This document shows positions 12,868-63,553 of a DNA stretch of 64,000 nt, in pieces. A model generated the notes under the pieces. That model had not been told where the DNA came from and ran no database searches. It worked only from the letters and a program-made list of their open reading frames with translations. Numbering within the stretch: position 1 is the stretch's first letter; each line of letters begins with the position of its first letter. Position numbers and translations under genes: made by a program. The DNA comes from Ulva prolifera (lineage: Eukaryota > Chlorophyta > Ulvophyceae > Ulvales > Ulvaceae), in assembly GCA_023078555.1 (NCBI GenBank), contig CM041197.1, forward strand, positions 186,001 to 250,000, in the 5' to 3' direction.

Positions 12868-15800
12868 CTATCCAAATCTACTCAACTCAGCTGATATCGT
12901 GCGAGCTGCATGCGGGGGTGCGGGGGGGCCCTCGCGGACCACGATCCCGGTGCACGCCTCCGGCACGACCCTGTACTGCTCCTCTGGCCCGAGCACACGG
13001 CTGGACCGCACCGCGGGCTGCGAACCGCCGCTAGCCACGCAGTCCTTAAACACATGCCTCGCCCCAACCCGCGTCAACGAGTACGCCACCTCGGCGCCCC
13101 GCACGTCCAGCCGCCGCGCGGTCACCCTCCCGGAGCCGTTCACCTGCAGCCCGAGGATGCAGTCGCTCATGACCACATCCTCCAGGACCGCGATCGCGAC
13201 AGTGCCCTCATGGACACAGCGCGCACCCTCCACTCCCGCTCTCCCTGCGGCATGGAGCGCGTTCAACGCGCACGCCACCGCCGGCGCCCCGGAGCGGCGG
13301 CAAACGCCGCACGGTTCACCCAGCATCTGCTGCGGCACACCGATCGTTGCGCCGACGCTGCAGCCCCCTACGCGGGTGTCAACGATGCGAACGGACGACC
13401 CCGCGACCACACTTACACCGACCAGGTTGCCCTTGAGGGTACACCCTCTCACGTGTGCCTCAACGCCGGGAGACCCTATCACAATAGCCCCCGCAGTGGC
13501 CCTTGTAGCCAAACAGTCTACGAGCGTCGCGGCGGTGCGGTGCCGGCCGCACGCACTGATGGCCAACCCATGCTCGCATGCCGTGAGGGTGAGGCGCTGC
13601 GCGCACACGGCTGCAGCACCGCACACATCCACGCCGATCTCGGCGCCGGTGCACTCGGTATCAGACACTGTGAGGGACGTGCCTTGCAGCGCGCGCATGC
13701 CCTCCTTGCAGCCAGCAAAGCGGCAAGCGGAGACCGTCGCCTGAGCGCCCTCGCTGACCAAGACACCCGTCACCACCGCCGCCTCGAACACACAACCCTG
13801 CACCCCCACACGGTGAACGCTGGTGCTTGAGCCGCGCACCTCGATACCCCCCGGCGCCCCCTTGAAGCGGCAGTCGCTCACTGTGCCGGAGCCACTCAGC
13901 AGCAGGTTCGCCCCTTCGCCGTGGCCGCCGAGGAACGTGCAGCCCGAGACATCGATGGCGCAGCTGTCGGTGAAGATGTCCCGGCGGTGGCCGCGAAACG
14001 TGCTGTGCTGCACAGTCAGAGCAGCGTGGCAGTGCGCAGCCATCACGGCCACCTGCTCCGTCATCACCCCCGAGATCACGCGCCGCGCGGCGGCGGCGCT
14101 GCCGCTGCCGCGGAAGTCGCACCGCACCGCCGTGATGGCGCCCTCGGCGTCGTCACACACGTGGAGGTCGGTACCGTTGCCGTGAAAGGTGACACCGACC
14201 ACGTCTGTGGCCACGGGGGTGCTGTAGCCGGCGCCCGGGATGCTGCCTCCAGCGTCAGGCGAGTTGTCTTGCAGGTCTGACGACACGGACACGGCGGTGG
14301 CGCAGCCGGACACGCTGCCGCCGGCCACCGACAGCTTGCCCCCGGCCTGACAGAACCCTGCACTGCCGTAGCTCTCCTCCCCCTGGCACCTCCCACTGTT
14401 CACCAGGCCAGACACGGTCACATCGCTCGCGCTCACGGACGCGTGGACCGCCAGCACACCATACTGCGCATTCCGCAGTGCACATCGCAGCAGCTTCGCC
14501 GTCCCGCCGAGCTGCACGAGGATGGTGCTCATGGCCGCAGCGCCGAGAAGCCCTCCCGCAGTTGCATCACGCATGAGCAGCCGGCCCCCGTTCGTGGCTA
14601 GGGCGCCGCACTTCTGCCCTTGTAGCCGCCCGCCGGTGACACCGACGATGCACGAGGGGTGCTCCACATAGCACGCGGTAGCGTTTGTGCTCTGCACACT
14701 GCAGTGAGACAAGCGCGCCACGGCGCCGCCTTGTGCACACACAACCACCGCGTTGCCACCAGTGGACACCTTGCAGAGGTGCAGGGTGGCGGTTGCGCCG
14801 CTCCGCACAGTCACGCCGGTACCCCCCAGACCAGGTGCGCTCAGGGTGCAACGTTCAAACTGGATTGCGCCAGCGCCGCGGCCGATCTTGTTGCCGTACA
14901 TGTACACGAGCCAGGATGGGGCGTCGGCAGCACCTGAGCGCCCTGCACGCAGCGCCGGCCGCCGGGCCCCCGGCGGCAAACGCACAAGCAGCTGCGTCTC
15001 ACGCAGCAGCATGGACGCACCCTCGCGCGAGATGACCGGGTGTATGCCGGCCGTGACGCTGCAGCCGTGAAGCTCCATGGCGGCGTGGCGCCCGTCCGCG
15101 ACGGCACCGCGCTCAAAGTTGTGGATGGCGCAGCCCCGCAGCTGTACTCGAGAGCCCTCAGAGAGCACACCCACTTTCTGACCAACGCCGGACAAGCAGC
15201 AGTCACGGCACGAAATCGCGGTGCCCGTGTCGCGGGCGATGAGTGAGGTGATGCAGCCGCTGGAGCGGCAGTGCGCGGCGGTGACGGTGGCGCCGCGCTC
15301 CGCCGTGACGTCGGTCATGCAGGCCTCAAGTGTGCAGGCGTGGAGGTGGAGGGCGGTGCCGGGGCCGTGCGCGACAGCCGCGGGGAAACCAGTCTTCAGC
15401 GCGCAGCGGCGCAGCGTGGCGGTCGCGCCGTGCACGGCGCACAGGGTGCACTCTGTGAAGGTGCAGGCTTCGAACGTCGCTGACAAGTCGCCGCCACAGC
15501 AGACGATTATACCGCCTGCACAGGGGTGACAGGCATGTCAGAAGGACTTTTGATTGCGAGATAGATCTCACCGCTGCTGTGTGGGGCATGAGGCTAGGCG
15601 AGTCGGCTGTGTTGCGGTGTTGAGAGTCAACGTATGGCACCCACTGTGAATATGACCCTCCTGGCCACATTTTCCTCGCGGCAACGCCAATGCATGGACG
15701 AAAGGGCTGCTGCGCCGATCGGCAGGGGCAGGCCTGCAACAGTGCCAAGCCGCGGCGCAGGGCGCCAATCATGGTTTCATGAGGGTATGGGGTGGCTCTG

Positions 15801-16830
15801 GCGCCTTCGGGGCACACGCGAGGGCCGCACCGGAGAAGGTGGTGCCTCTGAAGTGAGCTCCACGGCCCGTGAGGAGGAGCACGGTGGAGAGCGGCAGGTG
15901 GATCGTGCCGCCAGAGACAATGCAGCCGGCCGGCCACGCCCGCAGCACCAGGCCATCTACCGGGCCCTTGTTCCGCAGCCCCCGGTCGAGCTGCAGCGTC
16001 TCGTGCCCAAGCTCAATGTGGGCTGTCCTCGGCGAAGACATGGCCTGGAGGAGCGACTTGATGGATTTCACAGGCCCCTGCAGCATTCTCCGCATGTGTG
16101 CTGTTCTCATTACCTCGTGCAGGTGAGGGCATGGGATACTGCGGCGCAGATGTAAAATTTTAGCTTGATATCTGAATGTGGGGTGAAAGCGCCTCAACGT
16201 GACATGAAAGGCACATGCCGACGTTAGGGGTACATTGCCAATGAGCGAGGTTCATGAGCGATTTCAGCAATGTCCATCGTTAGTGCGAGGCGTGACAGCG
16301 GCACGACTCAAGTGAACTCCATGCTCGCACTCTAGTGCCTAGTCTGCGTTCGTCAGGGCTCTGAGGTAGCTGGGGTGCACTGACGAGGTAGGCAAATACG
16401 CAAGCATGCTCAACAGCAGGTGCGCAGATGTCTGCCGTCCTTGGATCTTTTCAATGTGAATCACGACTGGCGGATGATTAGTATTGAACGTCCGTTGGTG
16501 AAGGCACGCAGCTGATGCACTCCGAGTACGCGCGGGACCGATTATAGCCCCGTATCAAAGGATCATCGACAGCTATAGCACCTCTTTCTGTGATTGCTTC
16601 CGGAATTTGAGACGGTGGGTGCATCTCGCCTCGCCCCATGCCAGGCCCTTGGACGGGACGCCATCGCGGACGATAGTGGAAGCCTGGATGTTCTGACATG
16701 CCTCACAATCGACCATTTCGCGTCCATCCTTCCAGAATGGTTTTGGGCAGTCTCGCTTGAAGAAGGTGTGGCCGCATGCGACCAGCCTCGCCCGCAGGTG
16801 GGACGGCGGATCCCACCACTCAGCAGCCAT
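12868..16830 (-). CDS. Beta-helix gene A (three exons, 1047 aa)
   Basis: Exon 1 16830-16582, exon 2 16077-15831, exon 3 15515-12868. Introns are GT-AG, phase 0 then phase 1, and the joined frame is open. Exon 1 starts MAAEWWDPP and has VACGHTF...VDCEACQN. Exon 2 has SLLQAMSSPRTAHIEL and ends HFRGTTFSG; exon 3 continues GIIVCCGGDLSATFEACTF. Exon 3 is made of 20-25-residue rungs (pattern xAxLxxCxxxxxxxGVxV), the signature of a right-handed parallel beta-helix (PbH1-type). A CxxC...CxH set lies at C901, C904, C932, H934. No signal peptide or membrane segment is visible, so a cytosolic protein is likeliest. Partner, ligand and function are unknown. Closest relative here is gene B. Confidence 0.8.
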
Positions 16831-18589: not shown

Positions 18590-18725
18590 CATGAATTGTC
18601 TAAGAGTGTTCGGAGGTGCCGGGGGCCCATCACGGACCTCAATCCCAGAACACGCCTCCACTTCAACTCTGTACTGATCCTTGGGCCCGAGCATTTGATC
18701 GAACCTCAGCCCGGGGCGCAATCCG
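18590..18725 (-). pseudogene. Beta-helix C-terminal scrap (B-type)
   Basis: The minus strand encodes a SGIEVRDGPPAPPNTLRQ-like tail, nearly matching the end of gene B (20290-20430: SGIHVRDGPPAPPNTLRQ). Only the last 40-odd codons are present and no upstream exon is nearby. It is a leftover of a deleted or partially duplicated copy. Confidence 0.65.
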
Positions 18726-20270: not shown

Positions 20271-23200
20271 TCAACAGTGTTCATGTTTCGTGTGGGCACG
20301 TCCCTTGCTGAATTGTCTGAGAGTGTTTGGAGGTGCTGGTGGCCCATCGCGGACGTGAATCCCAGAACACATCTCCATCTCCACTTTGTACTGCTCCGCG
20401 GGCCCGAGCATGCGCCCGACCTGCACTGCGGATCGAGAGCCACCACTAGCATTGCAGTCCTCAAACACGTGCGCGGCCGCAATCCGCCTCAATGAGTACG
20501 CCACCTCGGCACCCCGCACGTCCAGCCGCCGCGCGGTCATCCTCGAGGCGCCGCTCGCCTGGAGCCCGACAACGCACTCGCTCATGACCACATCCTCCAA
20601 GGTCACGGCCACAACGGCACCCTCATGCACACACTCCGCACCCTCGACTCCCCCTGGCCCGGCCGTGTGGAGCGCCTCCCATGCATGCGCCTTTGCGACC
20701 GGCCCGTACCGCCCACACACAAGGCACGGATTCTCTAGCAGCATCTCTGGCATGCCGACCAATGCACCGACGCGGAAGCCCGTAATGCGCGTGTCCCTGA
20801 CCCGCACGTCCGCTCCCGCATTGATAAAGAGCCCCATTTGGGCACCCTCCAGGGTGCACCCTGATAAACTGACCTGCACTCCCCTGTGAGAACGAGTTGA
20901 CAGGGCAGTGAAACCGACCCGTGTAGCCACGCAGTCAACCAGAGTCACGACGGTGCGCTCTGCCCTGCCTGCGTCAACACTCACCGCCTCTTCGCATGCG
21001 GTCAGGCTCAGCCGCTGCGCACGGACGGCCGCAGCACCGCACACGTCCAGCCCGATGTCGGCGCCAGTGCACTTGGAGTCGAGCACCGCGACGGTGGTGT
21101 GTTGCGCCGCGGAGATGGCCTTCTTGCAGCTTTTGAAGGAACACGCGGAAATCGTTGCGTGTGCGCCGTCGCGGACTGACACACCCTCTGCCGCATCCCT
21201 GAAGCCGCAGCGCTGCACTTCTACGCGGTGCACGCGCCCGCTGGCGCCGCACACGGAAACGCCCGCCGGCGCCCCATCGAAGGAACATTCCCGCAACGTG
21301 CCGCTCCCGGCCAGCTGTAGAGTCGGCCCGTCGCCGCAGCCGAGGCGGAAGGTGCAGCCCGAGACGTCAATGGAGCAGCCGTCGGTGACGATGTCGCGCT
21401 GGTGGCCGCTGAAGGCGCTGTCTTGCACTGACACGGCCTGCAGGCAGTGCGTGGCCAGCACAGCCGTCTGCTCCGGCATCACACCTGCGAGCACGCACCG
21501 CGCGGCGGCGGCGCTGGCGCTGCCGCGGAACTCACATTGAACCGCCGTGACGGCATAGTCAGCGCCGTCATCCACACGAAGGCCGCAGCCGTTGCCGGCA
21601 AAGGTGACACCTTCAAAGCTCGCGGCGCCGGGGGTCTCTGTTGCTTCCGTAAGGTATGCGGCGATCGCGCAGCCGGACACGGTGCCGCCTGTGACCGTCA
21701 GGGTGCCCCCGGACTGGCAGAACCCTTTGCTGCAGAGGTGCACCTCCCCCCGGCACTCCGCATCATTCACCAGATCGGACACTGTCACATCCGTCGCGTG
21801 CACCACGCCGCGCAACATCAGCACGCCAGATTGGCCATTCTTCAGCGTGCAGCGCAGCAGCTTCGCCGTGCCGCCAGGACGCACGTCGACAACGCTCAAA
21901 GCTGGTGCGCCCGCCAGCCCGGCTGCATGTACATCATGCATGACCAGCAGACCAGAATTTTCGGCACCTGCGGCGCAGTCCCTGCCTTCCAGCCGCCCGC
22001 CTCTGACACACACAGAACACCCAGGCTCTTGTACGTGCACCGCGGTGCCGCACAAGCTGTTCACACTGCAATGCAAAGCAGTCGCGGTGCGGCCCCGCGC
22101 ACCCACCGATACGCCTGTGCCCCCGCTGGACACCTCACAGAGGAGCAGGGCAGCAGATGCACACGCACTCACAGCCACGCCGCCCTGGTCCCGCTCCGGC
22201 GCGCTCAGGGTGCAGCGTTCGAGCTGGAACCCTCCACCTCTGCAATTGCGATCGTCGCTTTCCGCGCATGCGAGGCAAAAGTTGGGGCCGAAGGGCTCTG
22301 GCAAACGCCCGGCGCGACGCGGGATTCGCAGGCGCGTTTGGCGCAGGAGCACCTGCACACCTGCGCTCGAGATGATGGGGTGCGAGCCGGCGACGACTTC
22401 GCAGCCATGCAGCTCCACCACGGACCCATGCCCTTCCACGATTACGCCTTGCTCGAATTTACTCACAGAGCAGCCGCGCAGGAGCATGGAAGAGCCATTC
22501 ACAACGACCCCCGGCCCCCCCGGCACGCCGGAGAACTCGCAGTCGTGGCACGAGACGGCGGTGCCGGCGTCACGGGCGGTGAGTGAGCTGATGCAGCCGG
22601 TCGATCGACAGTGGACGACGGTGGCAGTTGCGCCACACTCTACCGTGACGTTGGTCGAGCAGCTATACATGGTGCACGCGTGCAGGTGGAGGGCGGTGCC
22701 GGCGCCATGCGCGACGGCTCCGGGGAAGCCAGCGCTGAGCGCGCAGTGGCGAAGTGTGGCCGTGGCGCCGTGCACAGCATACACGGTGCACTGGGAGAAG
22801 CGACAGGCTTGGAACGTTGCTGAGAAGTCACCTCCGCAGCAGACGAGTATGCCGCCTGCACACGGGCAATGAAGCCGTTCACAGCGGCGGCGGCGGTGGC
22901 GCATGTGGTGCATGTGCGCCTGGGCAGGTCAACTCAAGAGGTCATCTGCTGCGGAGTGCAAGACATTCATTGTAGTACGCAGCAGCCTGCGGTATGCAGC
23001 AGATGTAGGAGGGTTCAGGATTCATCCTAGGTGGACAAACAATGTCTTAATGCCTTTGCTGTGACTACTGTGCCTGGTTGAGAGGCAGTCCGAACGCACT
23101 TGCAATTCAAGGCATTGTGCACCAGACCTGCTACGCACCAGCATCAGCTGCCCAAGCAGATGAGTGTTTAGCGAGGCTGATGTTGGGCTTCATTATGCAC

Positions 23201-24313
23201 ATGCAAGGGCGCACCGGAGAAGGCGGTGCCTGAGAAGTGCACTCCGCTGCCAGTCAGCAGCAGCACAGTCGAACGTGGCAGCTCGATCGTGCCTCCTGAG
23301 ACGGTGCAGCCATCCGGCCACGCCCGCAGCACCAGGCCACCCACAGGGCCCTTGTCCTGCAACCTCTGGTCGAGCTGCAGCATTTCGGACCCGAGGTCGA
23401 TGTGGGTGCTGCCAGGCGAGGACAAGGCCTGGAGGAGCGGCTTTATGCTTCTGACACGGCCCTGCGGCACGATCGAGGCATTCAGGTTCTGGTCTGCAGG
23501 TAATTCCAAACTACCCTGCAAGTGATGTGAAATGACAGGGCAGCTACACATAGTCAACGAAACGGATTCCACAGTAGCACGTGCTGACGTGCCACGGCAG
23601 CTAGTCGAGCACACAGGACAGTACGTGCCACGGCAGCTAGTCGAGCACACAGAACAGTACGTGCCACGGCAGCTAGTCGAGCACACAGAACAGTGTGTGC
23701 AAGCACCGCAATCCGAGGAAGGCAATCCTGATGCTGATTGCTGAGCATTCAAGTCAACCGTGACAACTGGACAACGACAGCCGCAGCGCATTCACATGCA
23801 TGCAGTCGGAGTCTTCATGCATGTGTAGGTGCTTGGACTTCACCTACATGATCGGATGAGCCGCCAGCACGTTGGACAAATGTTGATTTTTTTCCACCAC
23901 ATCCATATCGCGGGGGTTGGCCACTGGTCGGGTTGATCGACAGGCTGATGTGAGTGTCCCAGGTGCTGAAAGCCCTCAGCTCAGAGAAGAGAATTCTACA
24001 ACTACGCAGCATCGCAAAGAGCCAGTCAAAGTCGGCCATTCACGAATCATCAGAGCATTACCTTCCTCTGCGATCGTTTGCCAAACTTCAGACGGTGGGT
24101 GCATCTTGCGTCACCCCAGGCCAGGCTCGTAGATGGGACTCCGTCGCGGACAGTGGTGAGAGGAGGCTGGGCGCAATCACAGTCGGCACACTTGACAACA
24201 GAGATTCCATTCTGACGGTGCGCTTTCGGTGAGTCTTGTTTCAAGACGGTGTGGCCGCACACGCTCAGCCTCTCCCGCAGGTGGGACGGCGGATCCCACC
24301 ATTCAGCAGCCAT
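20271..24313 (-). CDS. Beta-helix gene B (three exons, 1027 aa)
   Basis: Exon 1 24313-24062 (84 codons), exon 2 23461-23215, exon 3 22855-20271, with the same intron phases as gene A and an open joined frame. Exon 1 begins MAAEWWDPPSHLRERLSVCG and keeps VVKCADC. Exon 2 keeps the SIKPLLQALSSP start and the HFSGTAFSG end. Exon 3 starts GILVCCGGDFSATFQACRF and runs through about 30 helix rungs with a Cys in most. The late ENPCLVCGRYG...ECVHEG motif is intact. No secretion signal is visible. Gene A is the nearest intact relative; the fragments at 18.6 and 24.8 kb derive from the same subfamily, so this part of the array has lost copies. Confidence 0.8.
23589..23696. repeat. Three 36-bp tandem repeats in intron 1 of gene B
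   Basis: A 36-bp unit starting GTGCCACGGCAGCTAGTCGA repeats three times with one or two changes. The minus frame, continuous with exon 2, would encode three Cys-rich 12-mers (xVCSTSCRGTYC), but the acceptor CCGCAG|GGCCGTGT at 23461-23467 places it in the intron, as in the sister genes. Confidence 0.75.
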
Positions 24314-24805: not shown

Positions 24806-26230
24806 TGATTGATCAATGCCCATGCACGGAGTCCGGCTCAATCCTATGCTGCTCCTCTGGGCCAAGCACGCGCTGGCACCGCAGTGCGGGCCCCCCACCG
24901 CTGCTGGCAGCGCAAGCCTCAAACACATGTGCATGCGAGCCGCCGATCCGACTCAGCGTGTACGCAGCCGCCGCACTCCGCACGTCCAGCCGCCGCGTGG
25001 CCACCCTGCCGGTGTCACGTGCCTGAACCCCAATGACTCAGTCGCTAATGATCACATCCTCCAGGTCCACGAACACCACGTATGGCGCCCTTGTGCACAC
25101 ACGCCGCGCCCGCCCCCTGCCCTGGCCCGGCCACGCGCGCTCCACCCCCGCCGTGCCAGACTGGCCACATGCACCGCAACTTTCCTCCAGCATCAACCAC
25201 GAATCCCCCGCGGCTACCCCAACGCAGAATCCCCTCAGGCGCGTGGCGACGATGTTCGCTGCACAGAGGACAGTCTTCACCAGACCCGGCGCGGAAGGTG
25301 CAGCCCTCGACGCCGATGGAGCAACCGCGTACGATGGCGTCTCGCTGGAGGCCGTTGAACATGCTGTCCAGGGTCGATGCAGGTGGCTGGCAGCGCGTGG
25401 CCAGGACGGTGACCTGCTCCGGCACGCGCCTCGCGGTTGCGGCGGTGCAACTGCCACGGAACCGCATCACAATGACATCTCCGTCGCACACGCGGAGGCC
25501 GACGCCGCTGCCGTCAAAGGTGACGCCCTCAAAGTTCATGATGCCGTGTGTGTTGTCCCCCGTATCTGCTGACATGGATGTGGCGATGGCGCGGACGGAC
25601 ACGGAGACGCCGGCGTCTGACAATGTGCCGCCAGGTTGCCGGAACCCTATGCTGCAGAGGGCCTCTTGCCCCTGGAACACGGCGGCGTGCACAAGACCAG
25701 ACACGGTGACGTCCATCGCGTGCGCGTGCACGCGCACGGCCGAGCCCATCAGCATCACACCGCGGACGACGGGACGTTCAGCAGCGCGCAGAGCATACGT
25801 GACAGCTTCGCCGTTCCAAGGCGCGCGGTAACAGAGGCCATGGCTGCAGTGCATGGCGACCCACCCGCAACTGCATCACGGATCACCAGCCGCCCCGCAT
25901 CCACTGCAAGTGCGCCGCACTGCCTGCCTTCGAACCGCCCGCCAGTGATACGAAGGGTGGCCGTGGGGTGTCCCACGAACCATGCGGATGCATGCATGAA
26001 TCTGCACACAGCAGTGTGCCACGTTCGCAGCTCGGCCGCGCTCACTAAGCAACACGCGAAGGTTCTTAAGGCTACCGCAGGTCACCTTGCACCTGGCGAA
26101 GAGTGGCGGCTGTGCTCGACTCGGCCTGCGTGTCAACGCCGCAGTCCGAGTCGCGCGGCCTGCGTGTCAACGCCGAGGTGCTCCCGCTCCGGTGCACTCC
26201 TGGTGCACCGTTCGAGCTGGATTGCTGCAT
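24806..26230 (-). pseudogene. Beta-helix fragment B2 (exon 3 only, broken)
   Basis: Minus-strand pieces in several frames match A/B exon 3 in order: an IQLERCT-like piece near 26.2 kb, GGRFEGRQCGALAVDAGRLV, the VSGLVHAAVFQG...QEALCS block, and the VLGPEEQHRIEPDS tail near 24.8 kb. There are frameshifts, an internal deletion and a degraded CxxC...CxH site. Exons 1 and 2 and the N-terminal third are missing. It lies just upstream of gene B's first exon. Confidence 0.7.
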
Positions 26231-26862
26231 CGCTGCATCCACTCTCTATTATCTCCCAGCAGGCAAGGCGCGGCAGGGTATAGAAACGTGGAGGCAGCTG
26301 CGCGGCTGCAGTTGCGCATGCATGCGGGTGCGTCTTGCCGCCTACACTGGTGCCTGTTCAGAAGCAGGAGGACTCGCGATCGTGTGGCAATGTTTGCCTG
26401 TAGCGATTGTGAGTGCCAGAAAGCCATTCAAATGGGGAGTGAGCACGGTGTAGCTGCGTGCCAGTGGGAAATGCTCCTGCAGAAACATGCTTTGGGTGAG
26501 TGCACGTGAAGATTCCTTACGAGTAATGCTTGTACAGTTAAAGTTCAAGATGTCTCCGGTACTGAATAGTTGCAGCTCGTTCTCACATTAGCATCATTTG
26601 ATGCACCAAATCTACATTTTATGCACGGTTGCAAGCATGTCACAACGACTGCCAGTCGTGTGACACCTGACCACATCGTATGGAATCAATGCATGGCCGC
26701 AACATGTGCCACACCGTCAAAAGGGATGCCCCAGGCCTCATGTGCACCATCTCGAACCTGAGCACTTGAGTTTGCAAATTCCAGGCGGGGATCAGACCAT
26801 TGGTGATGGGGTAGACACAATCGTTGTAAATCACGTCTGTAGGCACATCAGCGCAGGCCCCG
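26231..26862. other. Intergenic, nothing recognised
   Basis: Spacer between B2 and the 3' end of gene C; only short frames. Confidence 0.45.
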
Positions 26863-29800
26863 CTACGGCGCATCCCTGGTGCTGCCGCTGCTATGGCTAG
26901 CACTGGCAGCAACCTCCTCCACGTCCAGGATGGAGAAAACATGGCCTTGGGTCTCTTGAAGACCGGCCCCGGGCACCACCCACTCCTCCCGCGCGCCACG
27001 GGATCGAGCACACCCGATCACTTGGCAGCCGATGAATATGCTGCAGCGGCCCACCGCCCTCGGCCCCGGCGCGGCGATGCGCCTCACAAGCACCCCGTCA
27101 GCACACCCCTGCACCTTCAGCCCCTGCGCCTCCAGGCGGCCATGCATGTTCGCCAGCACACCGTACTCCTCACAGTCCGCCACGTCGACGTTCGTCAGCG
27201 CCACCTGGGCCACCGCGCCTTCATGCGCACAGCGTGCGCCCGCCACGGCGCCGCCCCCGGCGAGCAGCGCGGCGTGTGCTGCGCGCTCCGCCTGCACGCC
27301 TCCCCGCCCGCATGCGTCACACGGTTCCGCGAGCTCCATGTCGTCCTCCCCGATCTCGACGCCGATGGCGCACCGCGCGATGTGGGTGTCCCTCAGTCGG
27401 CACTTGCCGGGGCCCCTCACCATCACGCCGGCACCGCTGAAGTCAGACACGCGGCACCGCAGCACCGTGGCAGAGACCGCATCGGCGCCGCCGCCGAGGG
27501 GTGCCTCTGCACTCCCCAAAACACACAGCCCCAGAATCCCGGCTGACAGCGCACAGTCAGCAAGCTTTGCAACGGCGCGCGAGCCGCTGCTGCGGCTGAC
27601 GCGGACACAGGTGTGGCCGGCCTGAATGGACGTCCGCTTGGCGGTCAGCAGGCCGCCGCCGACGGCGAAGCTGGCGCCTGTCACTGCGGCAGATATGTGG
27701 CAGTCTTGAGCGGCCACATGTGCTCCGCATCCGACCATCACCCCCGCGCCGCAGCCGTCGATCACAGTGTCCAGGAGGTGCACCACGCCGCCGTGGCTCG
27801 CGATCACGGCGGTGCTGGCCAGCGCTTCCATGCGGCAGCGGCGGACGGTGCACTCTGCACCGTTTGACGCGCTCACGCCGCTCCATTCCACCTCAGCCAC
27901 CCCTGTGAACGAGCAATCCTCGACCACCGCCTTCCCTCGGGCGAGAATGTGAATGCAGCCAATGGGCGTGGCCGAGCCATGGAACGAGCAGTGCTGTACG
28001 CTGACGCCGTCCGGGGTGTTCCCTTGGATACTCACGCAGAACCCTACGAAGCTGCAGTCCTTGACACTCGCGCGCCCGGCTCCCTCAAGCACCAGCCCTA
28101 CCTCCTGTTCGTCGGCTTTAATATCTACGGCCGCCTCACTCTCCGCACAGTGCAGCCCGCGGAACGCACAATTCGTGATATCTGCCTCGAACTCGGGCTC
28201 GCGAAGCCTCACGCCGGCCGCGCAGTCAGTGAAAACGACACCGCGAACGTCGACCTCGTGTTTCAGTCCAGGGCGGTCGGGGTCGTCGCATGAGCCCACC
28301 CCCAACGCGCACCGCTCCACTGTCCCCCCACGCACAACAACACGTCCACCAAGGACCATGTACCCAAAGCCCGCCCCGGCCCCAGCGCCCTCATCCCTCC
28401 GCATATCACGCACAGCAGAGTCCACCACGTGGACTGAGCCACCAGAGCAGCAGAATCCCACCACCCCGTCCCGAATGCAGCATCTCGTCAGCCGCACGCA
28501 CGCCCGCTCATGCACGTCCACCTGCGCCATCCTCGGCCGCTTGCATCCGCCGGAACACATCTCCGTGTCGGCGGCCGTGATGCGGGCACCGTCGACGGCC
28601 AAGGCCACCGTCTGGCCCTCGTACCGCCCCCCCTGAAGCCGCACCGCGCTGTCGGACATCACCACCACGCACTCCATCGCCGCCGTGCCCTGGCAGCACG
28701 TCAGCACCGCGCGGCTGCCCATGTCCACAGCCACGACGCCTCGAGTGCACTGGATGCGGCTCAGCGTCGCCGCTACGCTGCTGCCCCGGCCTGCAAGGAT
28801 GCCGCCGGCGAATGCGCGGCCAGCTTTGCCGTGAAGGCTGCAGCGCTCGATCTGCATGCGTGCGCAGCCGTGGTACCAGCGGCCGCGGTACGTCCCGGCA
28901 CCCAGCGCGAGCGGACGGTCCTGCACCCCCGGGCGGGGCGCGACGGCGATGTCGCACTGCTGGAAGGTGGCACGCGAGTAGCTGCCAAACATGCCGCCGT
29001 GAGCAATTCGGTCTGCACACAGCTGATGCACCTCCGCGGCACATGCGCCCTCGAGGCCGTATATGGCTGAGATGAAATTTGAGATGTAGCAGTCGCGGAG
29101 GACCACACTGGCTCCGCTGATGGTGACAGCATGCGCGCCGTACGAGTGCGACAGCCCGCCGCCGAGCGCGCAGCGCGCCAGCCCAGCATGGCTGCCGGCA
29201 TCGTTGACGGCGACCCCGGCATCCGCTTGGGAGATGGTGCAGGAATCTGCGGCGAGCGTGGCCCCGCGCTCGACCACGACGCCGGCGAGGCAGCCGGACA
29301 TGCGGCAGTCGGACAGGGTGGCTACGGTGGCTTCGCCGCTGGCGATGAGGCCGGGGTATGCTCCGGCGATGCGGCAGGTGCGCAGCGTGACTGCCGCAGC
29401 GTGCACAGCGTACAGCGTGGTGGCGCGGAAGGTGCAGTTGTGGAAGGTGCCGGAGAAGTGCGCCCCGGCACACATGACGACTCCGCCTGCGGCATGCATG
29501 CTGCGGTGGGGGTCTGCGTGAGTGCTGGGCTCTTGTGGAGATCATAAAGGCTGGAATAACGTCGTGCCCTGGAGTCATGCAGACTAAGGAGGGCAGAGTC
29601 TATCGGGGCCATGCAGATTGGAGGCTGTCCAGTCGCTGTGCACAATTTGTGGCATGCATGCATGCTCCTTTGAAAGGAAGGCTAGCATGATGCACAGGGC
29701 CGGTGCAGCTGCCGCCTGAAACAGACGTCGACGATCATGGCTCTGGCAGCACGCCTTCCCATCAGGGCATTACGGAAATGGATCAACGGGCCACACCAGT

Positions 29801-47019: not shown

Positions 47020-47039
47020 AGTGGGGTTGTTGTAGGGGT

Positions 47040-48165: not shown

Positions 48166-51100
48166 CTACGGAGCATGCACCTCTGCCTGAAAGAGCACGC
48201 CCATGATGGGCTCCAGGCGCGAGCGGTGCGCTCCATCGGTGCTGCCCTGCTGGAACGCAGCTGCCGCACAGTGCGCCAGGCACTCTGTCGCGCTGCAGTC
48301 AGCAAAAACGCTGCGGGCGCCGAGATAGAACTCGACAAACCCCGACCCGCAGTTGTTGACGTGCACCCGGCGGGCTGTGAGGTGTCCATGCGTTTGTACG
48401 CTCACCCCATTGTGTGCGCACCCTGTCACATCGCAATGATCCAATGTGGCCACCGCACGGCCACCCTCATGCTGACACCGCGGCCGCAGCGCCGGGTCCC
48501 CTAGATCGGGCGCTCGGTGAAGTGCCGCCCACGCCGCAGCATGTGCAGCAGGGCCCTCGCGCCCACACACCTTACACCCGGCTAAAAGCACGTTGTCCAG
48601 GCATCCAATCGTCACGCCATCTGCGCCGCCAGACACGCGCAGTTTGCGCAGCCGCCCGGCTGCCGAGGCCACGACGCACACGCCGAGAGAGCACCCCACC
48701 ACTTCACACCGCAGTACACTCGCACTCATGCCACGGCCCTGGAAGTTCATCCCCATCGTGGCGCCGGAGACCGCGCTATCCACGACGGTGACAGAGCCCG
48801 GCATGTCCGGCGCGGCGATCACCCACACCCCCGTGCGGCCCCCGGTCACCGTCAACCGCTTCGCCGTCACCGCAAATCCGCCCGGCTCCGCGCGGATGCC
48901 AAAGTGACCCCCGCTGCACTGGCAGTCCTGGACCGCCAGCTGCGCCCCTGTGCCGGCCTGCATCGCCGTGGTGCACCCGTTGAAGCGGCATGCCACCACG
49001 GTGGCATTCGCGTTCACGACGATCCCATACTGCAAGCTTATGCTGGCCGCGGTCAGGCGCCCAAAGTCACATCTCCGCACCGCCACGGCCCCTGCGGCCA
49101 CCACAACCGCCTTGTGGGCAGCCTCGAAGTGGCAGCCCTCCGCATCGGCATCACCCCTGCACTCCACGCATGCACCTCCCAGTGGTGAGTGGCTAAACTC
49201 GCAACGGCGAATCTCGGTGCGGCACGCCATGCTGGTGCGCACACCCCAGTAACACCCTGAAACCATGCAGTCCTTGACGATCCCGCTCGACCCCTCCAGC
49301 ACAATTGCCGACATGTCATCGTATGCCTCAGGGTCTTCGAGGATCGGCACACCCCACAGCGGGCCTCGGAACGTCGAACCAGTGACGGTGACGGAGGACC
49401 CGTGATCCCCATGCACCCCCACGCAGATGTCCGTCATGTTCACGCCGGAAATGCGCCCCTCCGACTCGTTCCCAAGGGACACACCCACATACGCCCCCTT
49501 CAATGACCCCCCTTCCACTCGGAGCTTCCCCTTGCTGCTGCTTCTATACGCAAATGTCACGTCCCCAGAGTTACGGGCCGACCACACAACGGTGCCGCTG
49601 CGGTTAATGGCCACCTCACACTGCTTCGCGGACAGAGTGCCGAGGCATTCCACGGCGACCGCCGGCGCTGACAGCACGCAGCGCAGCAGCAACACCGTCG
49701 ATGACGGCCCAGCCCCTGCGGCCGGGTTGTCCGTGCTGCCGCCCCGCAGCGTGCTGTCGACCGCCACGATCCGCCCGCCCCCCCTCGCGCCGGCCACAGG
49801 CCCGTCTGCCGTGACTGTACACCCCTCTAGCCGCAGCACGCAGCGCTCGGCGTCTGCCACGCACGCCTGCTGCCCGCTGTGTGCTGTGCAGTGGCGCAGC
49901 AGCGCGCGGCACACCGGAGTGCTCAGCCACGCAATGTCTCGGTACACCTCCAGCGAAGAGAGCTGCACCGTCAACGCGCTGCGGTTCAACAGGTGGAAGC
50001 CTGTGCACTTGTGGCCACGCACGCTGCAGCGCTCGAGCTGCGCGCGGGCGCCGCCCTTGGCCGGGCCGCCGTCCCCCATCAACAGCGCGGCAGGACCCAC
50101 CTCGAGGCAGCTGATACGCATCTGGTCAATCAGGCGTAAGTCAAACTCCAGCTGCCGGCCGGTGAACAGCGCATGCCGCCGCAATATCACCGCGATGCCG
50201 GCACGTGTCAGCCGCACACGCTGCAGCTCCATGCATGCCGACGCACCGATCGCAGCCACCCCGGCACCAAAGTGCGACACCTCGCAGCCGCGCAGGCTGA
50301 CGGCGCCGTCGACGGCCACGACACCGCGGTCGCCGCTGTCAATTCCGTCGCCGCTGTTGCCCCGGAGCATGCAGTCAGTGAGAGACACCCGGCTGCCGCG
50401 GCCATTTGACACCACGGCCACGGCGGTGCGGACAATGGGGGTCGCGTCCGCCACCACCGCCGCGCCCTCCTCCACTACGATGCTGGTGATGCAGCCCTGG
50501 AAGCGGCACCCCGAGAGGGTGGCTACGGTGGCGCCGCCGCTCGCAATGAGGCCGAAGCAGGCTTTGAACGAACATCCGGTGAACGTCGCGGCGGCGCCAT
50601 GCACGACGCTCACGGTGCACCAGAACTGGCACCGCCGGAAGGTGCCGGAGTACCGCGCGCCGCAGCAGATGAGCGCCCCCCCTGCAGGCCACCGCATGCA
50701 TATTGTCGGCGGGTGTTCCGCAATTCGACCTCATGCATGCGCTTCATGTATTGGTGTGCTCTACACATGTGTGAATGCACGTTTGCATAGCCTCGTCCAT
50801 GGGGCTTGGGCCCTGCTGTTGTGCTCATAGGTACGGGTGCGACACATGCATGTGGGCACATGCAGGCGCAATAGGGCAGCCCGTAGCTTTAATATTGTTG
50901 TGGAGAGCTACATGCTGTACTATATACTACTCTGAGGCAGGCTGCAACATCTGACCAGAAGTGTGTCTGTTCAAAGTCCTGCTGCCAGTCTCTGCTGCTG
51001 CGATGACTGATCTCTGACTTCACCACAAACTGCAACGTCCTCACTCACATGCAGAGAGAGCACATAGAGCAGGAGTGATGTGCACCTGAGAAGCAGATGT

Positions 51101-51799
51101 CTGTAAAGTGAGCGCCACTGCCATCCAGTAAGCATGCGCCATTGTCTGGAAGGCAGACAGCGCCTGATTTGACGCAGCAGCCGGACGGTGACGACCTGAC
51201 CACGGCCATTCCCTCCCTGTCTCGATTGTCTGAGTTATGGGCAGCCTGCAAGCCGCGCAGATCGATATCGTGGGCGCCGCTGCGTGACATCTCTCCAGCA
51301 AGGTGTTGAAGGGTTCTGACCGTTCCCTGCATGGCAGTACAGCTGACCTTGTCGACGGCGACAGGACACGAGGAATGTGAGCACTATAGCAGACATAAGT
51401 GCTGTGCGTAAGCACATGTTCATGATTGCCGGAGATGACCATTTTCGAGCCAACACCAACCAAAGCCTGCTCATGGCTCGCCCTATGAGTAGCCATCTGG
51501 GAAGGCGCGATCACGGACATACCATCTGCGTATACATGCTCGGCACGTACCTCTTTTGGAGGCTTCAATCGTCTCTTGACTGTGCATTGAGCACCGCCCC
51601 AGGACAGATCGTCACTGGGCACGAAGTCTCGTGCGACTGTGGCGTGGGCACGGCTCCAGCATCGACGCCCAGCCCCGCAAACAGAGCAGGTTTCATACGG
51701 GCTTTCTTCGGACTGTCTATGGGACAGCTTGTATGTATGTCCGCACATTGTCTGGCGGGCCGTGAGCTCGTCGACTGGTCCCCATCGCTCCGAAGACAT
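48166..51799 (-). CDS. Beta-helix gene F (three exons, 1001 aa)
   Basis: Exon 1 51799-51551 (83 codons), exon 2 51326-51086, exon 3 50681-48166; the joined frame is open. Exon 1 (MSSERWGPVDEL) keeps the full TMCGHTYK...TCSVCGAG module. Exon 2 is two codons shorter than in E (GAHDIDLRG). Exon 3 has the same start (GALICCGARYSGTFRRCQF), the six-G acceptor run, and the AGCKVCGREG...RCQHEG motif, and ends 25 codons after the common QQGS block, exactly like E. It is a tandem duplicate of E (about 5.94-5.95 kb apart). The central 1.3 kb of exon 3 is almost identical to E. No targeting signal; function unknown. Confidence 0.8.
48601..49912 (-). repeat. Near-identical block shared with gene E (42659-43970)
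   Basis: 1312 bp aligned by eye without gaps: 8 differences, six of them in the last 180 bp. Both flanks, still inside exon 3, drop at once to clearly lower similarity. A recent gene-conversion tract is the simplest explanation. Confidence 0.8.
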
Positions 51800-53654: not shown

Positions 53655-54811
53655 GCGCATTACCGCGGCCGCAGCGCCGGGTCGTCGAGATCGGGCGCGT
53701 GACGGAGAGCCGCCCACGCCGCAGCGTGCGCAGCAGGGCCCTCACACCCGGCTGAAAGCGCGGTCTGCAGGCAGCTGATGGTCACGACTTGTTCGCCGCC
53801 AAACACGCAGCTTGCGCAGCCCGCCCGTCGCCGCGGCCACAACGCAGGCGCCGAGAGTGCACCCCGCCACTTGACACCGCAACGCACTCGCCCTCATGCC
53901 ACGGCCCTGGAAACACATCCGCATGTTTGCGCTTGACGTCTAGTGGACTGCGTGGTCTACACCGCGCTGTCCACGATGGTCACCGAGCCCGGCGCGTCCG
54001 GGGCGGCTTTTGTCCAGACCCTCCTGGCCACTGTCAGCCGCTTTGCTGACACTGAGTATCCCCCAAGCTCCGCGCGTGCCTCAGCACCTCGGCCGCACAT
54101 GCCACCTCCGCAGCCCCGCCCCCGTGGACGGGCCCGTCTACGGCAACCACATCACAGCTATCGGTGTCCCGACACCCCGCGCGCACCCCGCACCCCGCCG
54201 CCCCGCCACCCTGCGCCCCATACGCCCGCCCGGTGGGCTAGGCACGTAGTGCCATCTTTCGATCGCATGTATCGAATCGTACTCGCCGGGGTTCTCGATG
54301 ACACAGATTGCCTCGGAACGTCGAACCTGTGACAACTGCGAAGGACCCGGGATTGCTCTGGACACGCGCCCAGACGCGTGTCATCACGGCGCGCGCCGTG
54401 ATCCGGCGCCGGATCGCGATCCTGCCGGACTGACGAGGTACACCCCTGGCACGCCCCGTTGACGTCCTCGCAGCTACTGCCCTCCAGCATGCATGCAGTC
54501 CGTCAGAGACACTCGGCTGCCGCGGCCGCTCGACATCACAGCTGTAGCGGTGCGATGGATGCGGGTCGCGTCTGCCATGATAGACGCCCCCTCTTCCGCG
54601 ACGATGCTGGCGGTCGATGCAGTCCTCAACAAAGGCAGCCAGAGAGGGTGGCTATGGTGGCGCTGCCGGTCGCGATGAGGCCGAAGGAGGATGTGAAGGT
54701 GCAGCCGGTGAAAGTGGCAGCAGCACCGTGCACGGCGCTCTCTGTGCACGTGAATTGGCACCTTCGGAATGTGGCGGACGACCGTGTGCCGCAGCAGACT
54801 AGGGCCCCCCC
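53655..54811 (-). pseudogene. Beta-helix copy G (E/F type, heavily deleted)
   Basis: It starts at a CTTGCAG acceptor with a seven-G run (six in E and F), which shifts the frame, then GALVCCGTRSSATFRRCQF. It continues in shifted frames (VHGAAATFTGCTF, SRVSLTDCM), then jumps to the late region (EGPAAHAAAWAALRHAPDLD). The middle of the helix is gone, one Cys of the late CxxC motif is lost, and exons 1 and 2 are not found upstream. Confidence 0.7.
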
Positions 54812-58469: not shown

Positions 58470-59810
58470 TGATTTGTCATGCCGGAGGTGTTCGATGTTG
58501 GGAGCCACACATTCACTCGCCGACGGCGCGGTAGGTAGTGATGCTGCAACGCACCATGGCCATGGTGCCACTGCGGCGGTGTAAGGTTGGTTACTCAAAC
58601 CACTGTCAAGATCACCATCCACCGCTGTCGACGCTCTGGCATGACACGAAGTTGTGGCAATCCAGTGGTATAGCGGCCATATCACTGGATTGCCACAAAA
58701 GAGTCCATGTTCCGCACCTAAAAGCACTGAGGCAAACAGCTTCATCGCTGAGGGCACATTGCCGCCGCAGCGTAACGCGCCGCAGTCGCCGTGCGCTTCA
58801 ATGGTTATGTGTTTTGCAGTGACTGAGCTGCCCCCAGTCCCGGTGCTGGCGCCCACGTCTTCAGCAGTCACCGTGCAGTCCTGCGCGGCAACCTTGGCAT
58901 TGCCACCTATAGCCACCGCCGCCAGTGTTGCATGCCAACAGCGTCGCGGGTGCACGCAGAGTTGCATTGCCGGAAGCCTACAAAGGGGCAGTGCGCCATA
59001 CGGCCGCCGCCGGTGGCTGTGAACATGCCACCGATGTCGCTCGTGCCTGCTGGCCGCCGCCTTCACCGCTGCGTCCTCGGAATCCGTTATCTGCTCACAG
59101 TCCTGCCCGTGGAACTCGCAGTGCTGTACGGCCACCTCATCCCCCGCCCGTGCGAGCTCCACTCTGGACACACAGTTCCTGAATGGCACGCCATCGAGGC
59201 TACGATGCCCCCAGGCGGGAGGTCATCCATGGAAGCCGCCCCGATCAAACACATCTTCACCGTACCACCCTTGACACTCATCCACCCCCCCCACGGCAAG
59301 GTACCCGGGCGCGCGCCTGCCCAAAGCAGGCTGCGGCGTGTCATCGGACACCGTCTCTGCAAAGACCATGAACATCGCTGCCGGTTGTACCGACCGCGTC
59401 CACCGTCCCCGCCCTGCACAACACCCCAGAGCTGCCGTTGCTGATGTGGCACCTGAGAAGACGCGCGGTTGCACTGCACAGCACAGAGACCACATCATGC
59501 CCGTGTGCACAAGTCTGCAGCACGCAGTCGGCCGCCAAGACCTGCGTGTCTCCCAGCGCCCCACAAGCCACCATGCCTTCGTAGCACCCCCCCTGCAGCC
59601 ACAGGAAGCTACCAGGGTTGATCGTTCATGCGTACTGACGCGAAGCAGTCGGTCGCACATTGATCGATTGTGGCGCTGGCGCCCTGATGCACCGATGGAG
59701 CGGCATGCCTGGTGCGCAGACGGCAGAGTAAGGCGCTGGCGCGGCTGTCCCTGATCACGCTTTTGTTGGCTTTGGATCTGGCTTTTGTTGAGGCCCGAAA
59801 CACAGCCACG
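58470..59810 (-). pseudogene. Beta-helix middle fragment H2 (C/H type)
   Basis: The minus strand carries the middle third of a C-like exon 3 in broken frames: ASATIDQCATDC, LGDTQVLAADCVLQTC, ATARLLRCHISNGSSGVLC, then FRNCVSRVELARAGDEVAVQ and HCEFHGQDCEQ, which aligns with FTDCAAGVRLREPEFEADI in gene C. It lies downstream of the N- and C-terminal thirds of copy H, so it is either a separate relic or a displaced part of H. Confidence 0.6.
58652..58698. repeat. Hairpin with 16-bp perfect stem
   Basis: TTGTGGCAATCCAGTG at 58652-58667 and its exact reverse complement at 58683-58698, with a 15-nt loop that can pair a few more bases. It lies inside fragment H2. Confidence 0.85.
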
Positions 59811-60284
59811 GCATACCGCGGTATGTCGCGTGGTCTGGCTCAGATGCAAAGCAGATCCCTGCTCCACAGCAGACCAAACCGTGTGCCCAACACAGAGTCT
59901 GCGCACATTCTGCCGTACAAAGACATGCACATCGCTACAAATGAATCGGCCGCGAACCGATCGCCCCGAACCTCACAATGTTACAGTATTTTGAGACACT
60001 TTTACTTGCCTTTACTCGACCGCGAAGGACTGAGTCGCATGTTAGGTTGTTGCTCGCAGCACCTTTGTCAACAGTTGACAGAGCTGAATCTGTGCTGCAG
60101 TCGGCACTCGCATGCCGCTGCCACTGCAGGGCATACAGCCAACAGGGCAACAGAACCCAAACGTGCCAACGGGTGCTCGTGAATCCTCTCAGGCTCCCTG
60201 CACTCAAGATCCTGCGCACAGTGCTGGCGCATATCCACCTCCCAGAAACCGCAACTCTACAAACACACTCTTATAAGTGACCGC
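59811..60284. other. Spacer between H and H2
   Basis: Nothing recognised. Confidence 0.4.
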
Positions 60285-63200
60285 CTACCGTCTGTGGGCT
60301 GCCCTTTCCTGCTCGACCACGGCCACCTCTGGCAGCATGCGGACGATGTCGTAGTTCAGTTCGCCCCCCGAAAGCAGCATGTCCACCGACCACACCAGCA
60401 CCTCCGCAGCCTCCGCCGCACAGCCGACGGCCCTGCAGCCAGACCACGCTGCGTTGACAACATACCTCACGAGTATCCCGGAGTGGCACGCGATCGCAGT
60501 CACGCCGCTCGCCGCGACGTGGCCGCCCTCGTTCACCACCACCGCGAAGTTCTCACACTCCACCACCTCACAGTCGAGGCGCAGGCGCGCGATCGCGCCC
60601 TCGTGCACGCACCGCGCCGTGGCCGCAGCGGCGGCACCCCCCTGCAGCTTCTCAAACGCGTGCCGCACCGCCGCCGGCCCCGAGCGGCCGCACGTGCGGC
60701 ACCGCGTGGCGAGCTCGCAAACTCGCCGACCATCATGCCGCTCATGCATCGCGACACCCGGGTGCTCTTGAGCCGCACCGCAGCTGGCCCGCACACCCAC
60801 ACGCCGGCAACCCTGCAGCCGGAAACGTCGCAGCGTAGTATCGACACAGTGGTGGCGTGGGTGGCATCACCCGAGCTGCTGTCCTGACCATGCGCCGAGG
60901 CGTCAACGGCACCAGCTGCAGCGCTCGTGGATGGCTCCGGCACGACACGGAGCCCTTGCCACGGCACGACACGGAGCCCTCGTATATTGAGGCGGCATTG
61001 TCTGAGATCCGCACGCGGCACAGCACAGCGCTGCCGTGGCCGTCCCTGGCCACAGACAGGCCGCCTCCTGCCCCACGCATGCCACTCATGTCACACCGCT
61101 CCATCTGCATGCAAGCGTCGCCGCGATCCTCAGGGTTCCGCGTCAGGCCGAGGGACACAGCCACGGGACAAGCATCCAGGACGGGCGTTGCAGAGACGCA
61201 GATGTCGCTCTCCCGCAGGGTCAGTCGGGATCGGCTCTCGGTCAGGACACCGTGCAGAACTCGTTCGAGACGCAGCCCCTCCGCCTCCACGGTGCTGTGG
61301 CTTGGGCCCTTGGCTACCCGCACCGCCTCAATAAATCCGGTGATGTGGCAGTCGTGGAGGCTCACGCCGGCGCTGCTTGTGGTGATGCCGTGCGCCCCGT
61401 TTGAGTACGACAATCCGCCGGCCAGCACGCAGCGCGCCAGCTCAGCACGGCTGCCGTCGTCGTTGACCACAACGGCGGTGTCGGTTTGGGAGATGGCACA
61501 GGAGTTTGCGGCGAGTGTGCCGCCTCGCTCGGCGACAATGCTGGTGCTGCAGTAGGAGATGCGGCAGTCGGAGAGGGTGGCCATGGTGGCTTCACCACTC
61601 GCGACGAGGCCAGTGTATGCACCGGCGATGTGGCAGCTGCGCAGCGTGACCGCCGCAGCGTGCACAACGTAGAGCGCGGTGGAGCGGAAGGTACAATTGT
61701 CGAAGGTGCCGAAAAAGCGCGCCCCGGCACACATAACGACTCCTCCTGCGACATGCATGCACAGTCAAACGCAGGGCGAGGAGCGGCTGTGGCAGACGAA
61801 ACAATGCACCACCCCCCCTGTGCCGCGAACTTCACGCATGAGCACATCGCCGCGCATTGCACGCCCCCCATACCACCGAACGTGGGCCATATGCAAACAT
61901 GGACAGCATGCACATGTCTGGGAGGGTGTACCTGTGAAGGTGGTGCTGTGGAAGTGTGCCCCGGCGCCGGCCAGCAGCAGCACCCCCCGCTCCGGCAGCT
62001 CCACGGTGTCCGCATGCAGGCGCAACCAGTGGTGGTCGTCCGCCACACCAGGAAGCCGTCCGCCCCTTGCGGCCTATGCCGGCTGTGCAGGGGAGCTGCC
62101 GGCAGGTGCAGGGGACCCGCCTGCGGCGCCGAGACAGCCGCTGCCAGGTGCTCCACAGTGAGCAAGGCGCCCTGCACATAAGGTACCACGTGCATTGCTC
62201 TGCTCCGATCATGCAAGGTGAGGTGTGTGTACCATATTGTCAGGGAACCTCGAGCCGATGCCATGGCCAGCGGATCAGCACGCTGTAGCAGGCGGGAAGC
62301 AGAACCAATTCGTCAATGTCTTTGTAATTGAGGCCAGTTCTCAGCGGTAAGTGTGCCATGGGAGCACAGCCTGCCAGCCTGCGATCGGGCGGCATGTGCC
62401 GCAGAGGTGGTTGCAAGCATTTGCCATCGCAGTCACCGGAAATCAAGTTTTGCATACAAGCTGGCTTGCAATGGAAGCACATAGGAAGTTTCTTGAAGAC
62501 CTGGCCAGGTACCATGATGCCTACCGCAACTGCCTTTCGTGCTTGCACCTGATTTTTGTAAGATCCATGGGAGACGCCACAGGACAACATCAACAAGCAC
62601 ATCAACAACAGTGCATCGGTGCAGTTGATTCTAAATGATATAACATAAGTTTGAAAAGGATCTGACATAGAGGCCTGAGTGATCCCAGCCACATGTCTGA
62701 CGGTGGACGTGGCTGATCATGGAGGGATTGTGTAGCAGCACCGCCACCAGGCTGGCCATACAGCTTCGCGAAGCAGGCGATCTTAGACGAGGCTCACGGT
62801 GACCTGCGGGCGCTGTTAATACGACAGATGTCGTTTATGTTCAGAGCTGTGGTCTGCTTGACGGCAGCGCCAGCCGGTCATGTGGCATGCTAGTGCTCTT
62901 GCTGTCGAAGCCTCCCGCAGCTGGGTGCTCGCGTGTCGAGGGCACCGCCAGCTCCGGTCGTCTAGAATCATATCAGTCTCTGTGTGGTGACGACTGCGAT
63001 GATTCCATATGGTATGACTGCTCTTTCCGGTATTCCGGACCACTGGCGCCAGATATCGTTGGCAGCTTCTCACACTGTCCCAGATAGCTCCACCGATACT
63101 GGCCTAGATCGTGTCAGCTAGGTCGACAGAGCTTATGCAGGTACTGCTTAAAACTGATATTCGCTGTGCAAATGCAGCGTGCGCTCGGTGAAGCAGTCGG

Positions 63201-63553
63201 TCCGAAGCAATCTGCGTTCTAAGTCAGCGTGTTTGGGTCTTTCGAGCAAAGCTGGTGGCCGCTTGATCCAGAATGAAGTTAATATTGCTGGATGAGACGC
63301 AACGGCGCACCGGTTCCGTCGGCTTCAGAGGTCTAACTTTCGTGCGGGTACACCATTCCCATGTCAACGTTGCTGAGCTGCACGGCACCAAGTCGCGGCT
63401 TGCGGAAGCCCGAAGGAACGGTACAATGTCTCCACACGTTTCACGCTCCTCTTGCTGGACGAATGGAGGAGCAAGCTCGACACGGTGGCCACAGGACTGG
63501 CGCCTGCAGGGCACAGCTGTTCCTGGCAGCGAAGCCCACCACTCAGTGGCCAT
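60285..63553 (-). pseudogene. Beta-helix copy H (C type, frameshifted and internally deleted)
   Basis: Exon 1 63553-63311 (MATEWWASLP, RRQSCGHRVE; the CxxC is reduced to ETCGD) has the same length as in gene C. Exon 2 62171-61932 is 240 nt where C has 241; a 1-nt loss near 62010-62025 shifts the frame before LPERGVLLLAGAG. Exon 3 starts at 61745 (GVVMCAGARFFGTFDNCTF), runs open to about 61000, then changes frame and passes directly to the C-terminal third (TVSILRCDVSGCRVAGVWVC; RCRTCGRSG...RCVHEG), stopping at 60285. The middle third is missing here and a matching piece lies at 58.5-59.8 kb. Confidence 0.7.

Follow-up and report, generated by a model that had tools for sequence, protein, structure and literature searches.

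A tandem family of three-exon genes

The analysed window is a 64,000-nucleotide stretch of the green alga Ulva prolifera (C2:186001-250000 of the 88.9 Mb, 44-contig genome that we searched). The light-harvesting proteins of this genome are of the chlorophyll a/b LHCII type, and one of them has its best single-domain match in 7dz7 (Chlamydomonas); they indicate a green plastid and, probably, a chlorophyte host. The window carries five genes, A, B, C, E and F, of a family whose proteins are predicted to fold as a long beta-helix and which contain two conserved Cys/His modules. All five lie on the minus strand and are modelled with three exons (exon 1, 243–252 nt; exon 2, 241–247 nt; exon 3, 2516–2648 nt), with intron phases 0 then 1 in 5/5 cases, that join in frame to encode proteins of 1047 (A), 1027 (B), 1035 (C), 1004 (E) and 1001 (F) residues. 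These models reproduce exactly the products of 1001–1047 residues proposed in a first-pass annotation of the sequence, and the shared design that it described, with phases 0 then 1, recurs in 20 complete models over 270 kb. Its picture of a 50-kb single-strand array held for the strand of the five models but not for the extent, as the array runs past both end points given for it, with genes of the same family on each side. Its count of at least seven broken or partial copies gave way in a tblastn recount to five loci (18593–18724, 24819–26306, gene D at 35569–39598, 53663–54841 and 58782–63553) comprising seven exon-3 segments.

A tblastn scan of 270 kb (C2:120001-390000) with the window exons yielded 25 exon-1, 28 exon-2 and 33 exon-3 intervals. 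Twenty-five exon-3 loci exceed 2 kb. At 20 of them, including the five window genes, themselves the queries, all three exons could be modelled in full, the intron phases being 0 and 1 every time; the remaining five, D among them, gave no complete model. Nineteen models are full length (994–1047 aa) and one is truncated (739 aa). Intron lengths range from 96 to 1169 nt, and exon 1 (240–258 nt) and exon 2 (241–259 nt) show little variation. Because the boundary search tolerated small in-frame shifts, exact splice positions were tested at loci outside the window. There the exon-2 donor G/GT is exact at the predicted position in 20/20 loci versus 2/280 offset controls, the exon-3 acceptor in 16/20 versus 9/280, and the exon-2 acceptor in only 10/20 versus 30/280. 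Judged by these sequence counts, splice-site conservation outside the window is more than chance, and on comparative evidence only the family genes appear to be spliced from three exons.

Genome-wide, exon 3 of gene F gave 60 matches that merge into 47 loci, 36 of them on C2:132-978 kb, seven on C1, two on C8 and one each on C4 and C35. In this count one merge fuses two opposite-strand genes, and D and other broken loci are included, as are what may be assembly duplicates on C1 and C35. With exon 1 of gene F there were 48 matches at E values up to 10, at least 36 of which have a same-strand Beta_helix match within 6.5 kb downstream (compared against 76 of 118 Beta_helix matches). The two dispersed members that were read, on C8 and C1, have three exons in the right order. 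Family members with identical scores lie about 43.5 kb apart on C1 (C1:9428035-9445187 and 9471584-9490006), one of them also at C35:14092-16336, and represent either a recent segmental duplication or an assembly duplicate.

A predicted beta-helix with two conserved Cys/His modules

Exon 3 of all five window genes matches the Pfam Beta_helix profile PF13229 (E values of 6e-22 to 3.6e-30; 78–105 bits, curated cut-off 25.9), and AlphaFold models gene F as a right-handed parallel beta-helix (predicted local distance difference test, pLDDT, 79.9). With the profile over its curated cut-off in 5/5 genes and a solenoid predicted, as the first-pass annotation had expected, the family fold is, on this model, a right-handed parallel beta-helix. 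Among the 50 PDB matches listed by Foldseek no single structure is close (template modelling score, TM, ≤0.33), and exon 3 has no PDB match by sequence at E values up to 0.01. In the Foldseek VIA search FBXO11 was not among the 50 matches listed, which excludes nothing.

Within exon 1, residues E4, W6, R15, C19, G20, H21, C38, D58, V60, P61, W67 and A70 are invariant in the 19 full-length proteins, and C41 is kept in 18, the exception being E, which has Asn. The exon 3 residues C866, C869, C899 and H901 are kept in 19/19 proteins, or 21/21 when two dispersed members are added, and this embedded module is present in 19/20 models, lacking only in the truncated one. The CGH/CxxC module and the embedded CxxC...CxH motif picked out in the first pass are both nearly invariant, and the two Cys/His sets would, from their pattern, be expected to bind zinc. 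Conserved positions are concentrated in the N-terminal part and at the second module (exon 1, 15/83; exon 2, 15/80; residues 164–300, 23/137; around the second module, 7/45), compared with 3–6 per 100 between residues 301 and 800. Even with a loose pattern, the Cys/His module was not found in any of seven other beta-helix frames (L001, L002, L003 and L005–L008). Five of these (L001, L002, L003, L005 and L008) start with GG after an AG acceptor-like site, like the family exon 3, hinting at a shared intron position. A common origin of the two modules as mutual repeats was rejected, an hhalign probability of 25 over 15 columns around the CxxC not being accepted as evidence.

Duplication, conversion and selection

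The family genes form five clades. Four are contiguous along the chromosome, a layout that fits local duplication, and the fifth (C with g254658) flanks E and F on both sides. E and F share a 1215-bp tract inside exon 3 with three differences; elsewhere they are ~66–96% identical per 100-column block, down to 47% at the gene end, and their synonymous differences amount to ~6–30% in coding blocks before the tract and 19–44% after it. As far as the alignment can tell, the tract is a recent gene conversion. Tandem growth, decay and probable conversion, as proposed in the first pass, are confirmed by local duplication, decay and this 1.2-kb tract, and the initial interpretation as a whole is partly supported.

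The ratio of nonsynonymous to synonymous substitution rates (dN/dS) is 0.39–0.56 in the 25 closest pairs, and the fitted ratio omega is 0.35 in the AB subfamily and 0.37 in the right subfamily (six genes each), where 36–42% of codons are nearly neutral. Model M2a improves on M1a by a doubled log-likelihood difference of 19.0 (AB) and 38.6 (right), and still by 18.2 and 27.2 once the sequences are realigned and positions close to gaps masked. Analysed by halves under three topologies, the difference is 4.4–6.2 in the first half of AB, where the fast class is unstable, and 8.3–16.6 in the other three halves; the codon models were run with an unbenchmarked script of our own, and tests of this kind can be inflated by conversion. 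Modelled in this way, purifying selection appears to predominate (omega about 0.35), and two subfamilies have a small class of fast codons. Alignment columns 300–419 have a high ratio of nonsynonymous to synonymous proportions (pN/pS), which 24/929, 2/945, 21/484 and 72/914 equal-length windows reach in four clades. Fast change is not in excess in loops over strands: in both clades pN/pS is 0.57–0.65 whether strand, loop or helix is taken.

A candidate recognition or adaptor repertoire

No hydrophobic N-terminus was found in 19/19 proteins by Kyte–Doolittle hydropathy (no dedicated signal-peptide predictor was run), and each protein has 49–67 cysteines, so an intracellular location is probable. 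We tentatively propose, giving it somewhat less than an even chance, that these intracellular right-handed beta-helix proteins act in recognition or as adaptors and together form a variable repertoire. Exon 1 would encode a small Zn-type module (CGH...CxxC, then RD-x-VP...L-x-W-x-x-A-x-C), and exons 2 and 3 a long solenoid that a second Zn-type module (CxxC-helix-CxH) would interrupt near its C-terminal end. The target, protein or glycan, would bind at the side of the solenoid, and both conserved modules would translate that binding into a single common output, which might be a ligase-type or a scaffold interaction. Such a repertoire would grow by local duplication, be partly homogenised by gene conversion and lose members by decay. 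A repeat-protein family that is large, tandem and conversion-active is often the mark of a recognition system; to our knowledge, few families of this recognition type have been described in green algae. The fold itself is known; in the libraries and literature searched, nothing was found that combines two conserved Cys/His modules with a fixed three-exon design in a large conversion-active family. Recognition, the step that leads to the output and any part of the family in immunity or allorecognition are our inferences. Rather unlikely, in our estimate, is the fuller proposal of a system inside the cell, parallel but unrelated to the nucleotide-binding leucine-rich repeat (NLR) proteins, in which dozens of paralogues would diversify their solenoids by duplication, conversion and positive selection, and an N-terminal and a C-terminal zinc module, both kept fixed, would transmit a single output, ligase-type for instance, that serves defence, allorecognition or mating.

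A narrower rival of the recognition or adaptor repertoire would make the proteins ubiquitin- or SUMO-ligase receptors, with exon 1 a degenerate RING or SP-RING of one Zn site and the beta-helix selecting substrates as the FBXO11 CASH domains do; we consider a ligase output unlikely. The CGH...CPxC ligand pattern of exon 1 points that way, since a RING has CxH...CxxC at its second Zn site and an SP-RING at its only one. A PDB profile search from 20 exon-1 sequences (35 matches) ranks the TRIM32 RING best (0.012 and 0.017); further RING or SP-RING proteins score 0.4–8, among them DTX1 (0.42), AMFR (0.64), NSE2 (0.74) and PIAS3 (1.7). These matches are weak, however, RINGs are common in the PDB, and a profile from six sequences does not list TRIM32. 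Pfam gives Prok-RING_4 (0.003) and zf-RING_5 (0.093) in one of 20 members each, but more often rubredoxin-like or zinc-ribbon families, the commonest being a weak RUBY_RBDX match in 6 of 20 (best 0.0014), with 14 of the 20 unmatched. A canonical RING has eight ligands and two Zn sites, and exon 1 conserves only CGH, CxxC and one later Cys; the SP-RING ligand order fits, with the NSE2 and PIAS3 matches weak and the AlphaFold model of exon 1 of low confidence (pLDDT 42). No F-box was found in exon 1 (n=20, 25 of 30 families listed), exon 2 (n=5, E up to 10) or exon 3 (n=5, E up to 1), a very divergent one being possible; zf-UBR was not matched by any of 21 module sequences (E up to 10), and the second module has no credible profile match. 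The domain order is comparable with that of FBXO11 (PMC8825234), which favours the ligase reading.

A rival in which these beta-helix proteins, as part of the pectate-lyase-like superfamily, would cleave or bind carbohydrates of the algal wall or matrix is improbable. A hydrophobic start is absent in the 19 scored proteins and their many cysteines fit a reducing compartment. Pect-lyase_RHGA_epim (PF12708) stays under its cut-off in the four of five window genes that list it (best E 3.3e-4); no Pfam enzyme family exceeds its cut-off, and the conserved-residue list holds no adjacent conserved acidic or basic run (residues not placed on the model). The proteins might instead be nuclear regulators, in which an exon 1 zinc ribbon and a beta-helix scaffold would serve transcription or RNA complexes and copy number would be neutral or stress-driven. 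The weak zinc-ribbon-like Pfam matches, a CPxCG knuckle in several members and the absent hydrophobic start agree with this, but the only matches of nucleic-acid-binding type are weak zinc-finger ones, and it is rare, as far as we know, for regulators to grow to dozens of loci that have a fast codon class; we regard it as quite improbable. That the expansion is mostly inert, from a duplication-prone locus under relaxed constraint with no repertoire role, draws on the five broken or partial loci beside five intact genes and on the 36–42% nearly neutral codons, but omega of 0.33–0.37, together with the conservation of module residues and splice sites in five clades, argues for a selected function and makes it very unlikely.

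A viral origin was rejected. None of 62 pattern stretches in viral contigs was confirmed by tblastn, and the capsid of nucleocytoplasmic large DNA viruses was not matched in the genome, a weak result in that the control matched nowhere either. Foldseek against viral models returned phage and giant-virus beta-helix proteins at low TM and about 6–13% identity, and the conserved introns argue for host genes. Prokaryote relatives were likewise rejected, as none of 105 pattern stretches in prokaryote contigs was confirmed.

The proposed recognition or adaptor repertoire itself meets several contrary observations. When the two exons were searched separately, as the first pass had suggested, exon 3 gave Beta_helix over its cut-off, but exon 1 gave no significant family, and no domain with a known output was found in the family proteins. 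The low pLDDT of exon 1 and the absence of TRIM32 from the six-sequence profile count here too, as do the exon-1 cysteine lost from gene E and a C-terminal tail that is not specially kept (5 conserved positions of 96). Columns 300–419 were picked after three clades had been seen, leaving 72/914 as the sole independent clade, and their pN/pS is only 0.71–0.82. A 19-residue window inside exon 3 exceeds a hydropathy of 1.6 in 13 of 19 proteins, reaching 2.04 (no membrane predictor was run); 1.6 over 19 residues is the usual membrane cut-off, and we read these windows as solenoid core.

Features and surroundings of the window

Table 1 Features of the beta-helix family in the window (window positions; C2 coordinates in brackets where given)
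Feature	Position	Strand	Basis
Gene A exon 3, predicted beta-helix body	12868..15515	-	splice model; PF13229 1.6e-23
Gene A exon 2, entry into first rungs	15831..16077	-	splice model
Gene A exon 1, CGH/CxxC module	16582..16830	-	splice model
A/B-like exon 3 end, fragment	18593..18724	-	tblastn
Gene B exon 3	20271..22855	-	splice model; PF13229 6e-22
Gene B exon 2	23215..23461	-	splice model
Gene B exon 1	24062..24313	-	splice model
A/B-like exon 3 copy, broken	24819..26306	-	tblastn
Gene C exon 3	26863..29486	-	splice model; PF13229 5.7e-25
Gene C exon 2	29797..30037	-	splice model
Gene C exon 1	31188..31430	-	splice model
Gene D exon 3, disrupted by several in-frame stops and frame changes	35569..38086	-	tblastn
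Gene D exon 2	38895..39131 (C2:224895-225131)	-	tblastn
Gene D exon 1	39362..39598	-	tblastn
Gene E exon 3	42224..44742	-	splice model; PF13229 3.7e-30
E/F conversion tract, E side, 1215 bp, 3 differences	42659..43873	-	
Gene E exon 2	45135..45381	-	splice model
Gene E exon 1, second CxxC Cys to Asn	45606..45854	-	splice model
Gene F exon 3	48166..50681	-	splice model; PF13229 3.6e-30; AlphaFold
Gene F embedded CxxC...CxH module, residues 866-901	48469..48576	-	
E/F conversion tract, F side	48601..49815	-	
Gene F exon 2	51086..51326	-	splice model
Gene F exon 1	51551..51799	-	splice model
E/F-like exon 3, fragment	53663..54076 (C2:239663-240076)	-	tblastn
E/F-like exon 3 start, fragment	54441..54811 (C2:240441-240811)	-	tblastn
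Partial C-like copy, exon 3 remnant	58782..59610	-	tblastn
Partial C-like copy, exon 3 start region	60405..61746 (C2:246405-247746)	-	tblastn
Partial C-like copy, exon 2, two pieces	61933..62168 (C2:247933-248168)	-	tblastn
Partial C-like copy, exon 1	63314..63553 (C2:249314-249553)	-	tblastn

Intron 1 of gene B contains three near-perfect 36-bp tandem copies (23587–23694). Adjoining the array is a Copia-type reverse transcriptase (2329–3906, plus strand; RVT_2, 3.3e-60), and two identical 91-bp direct repeats lie 227 bp apart at 4179–4269 and 4406–4496. Three adjacent open frames at 4412–7916 (minus strand), with a weak DUF4218 match (0.0043) as their one Pfam match, may be transposable-element pieces. 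At 57707–58318 (plus strand) a 203-aa frame, rich in Ser, Thr, Ala and Pro and without a Pfam match, lies on a 129-bp tandem repeat of 3.5 copies.

Comparison with known systems

The nearest layout to that of the algal family, by analogy, is FBXO11. FBXO11 has an N-terminal F-box, beta-helix CASH domains for substrate recognition and a C-terminal zinc finger (PMC8825234). In FBXO11 and in the algal proteins alike, a module at the N-terminus precedes a long right-handed beta-helix, and a zinc finger lies near the C-terminal end. The algal proteins differ in having no listed F-box or UBR box and in the Zn type of their N-terminal module; membership fails on these two boxes, and we treat the working analogy as a hypothesis. 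FBXO11 is a single-copy gene and the algal family comprises dozens of loci. Beta_helix (PF13229), NosD-like and pectate-lyase-like proteins resemble the family in predicted fold and Pfam Beta_helix membership, from which it departs by its two Cys/His modules, its fixed three-exon structure and the lack of any enzyme family over cut-off. Adenovirus E1B 55K (PF01696) shows weak profile similarity over the rungs (best E 0.0019 in the window genes, under the curated cut-off), with no sign of a viral origin in limited tests.

Plant and algal NLR families are likewise clustered, tandemly growing repeat-protein genes with decay, but neither NB-ARC nor leucine-rich repeats are listed for the algal beta-helix exons, NB-ARC being absent from the families listed for exon 3, exon 2 and exon 1 (25 of 30 listed for exon 1). 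The genome has 33 NB-ARC matches, mostly clustered (C6:2.31-2.60 Mb, C4:7.32-7.53 Mb, C1:4.68-4.88 Mb and C8:5.23-5.28 Mb), and in the one such gene that was read (L041) a very long leucine-rich repeat region comes after the NB-ARC, within a single open frame of ≥1995 aa. These clusters and this architecture indicate that a clustered NLR-type family is present. An immune role of the beta-helix family drawn from the NLR parallel is an analogy only. The family offers a clear test object, a variable solenoid whose fold is known with two conserved modules of metal type around it, and clustered NB-ARC genes occur in the same genome. If its members do recognise microbes, viruses or non-self, the family would represent a solenoid recognition repertoire built on the beta-helix instead of leucine-rich repeats.

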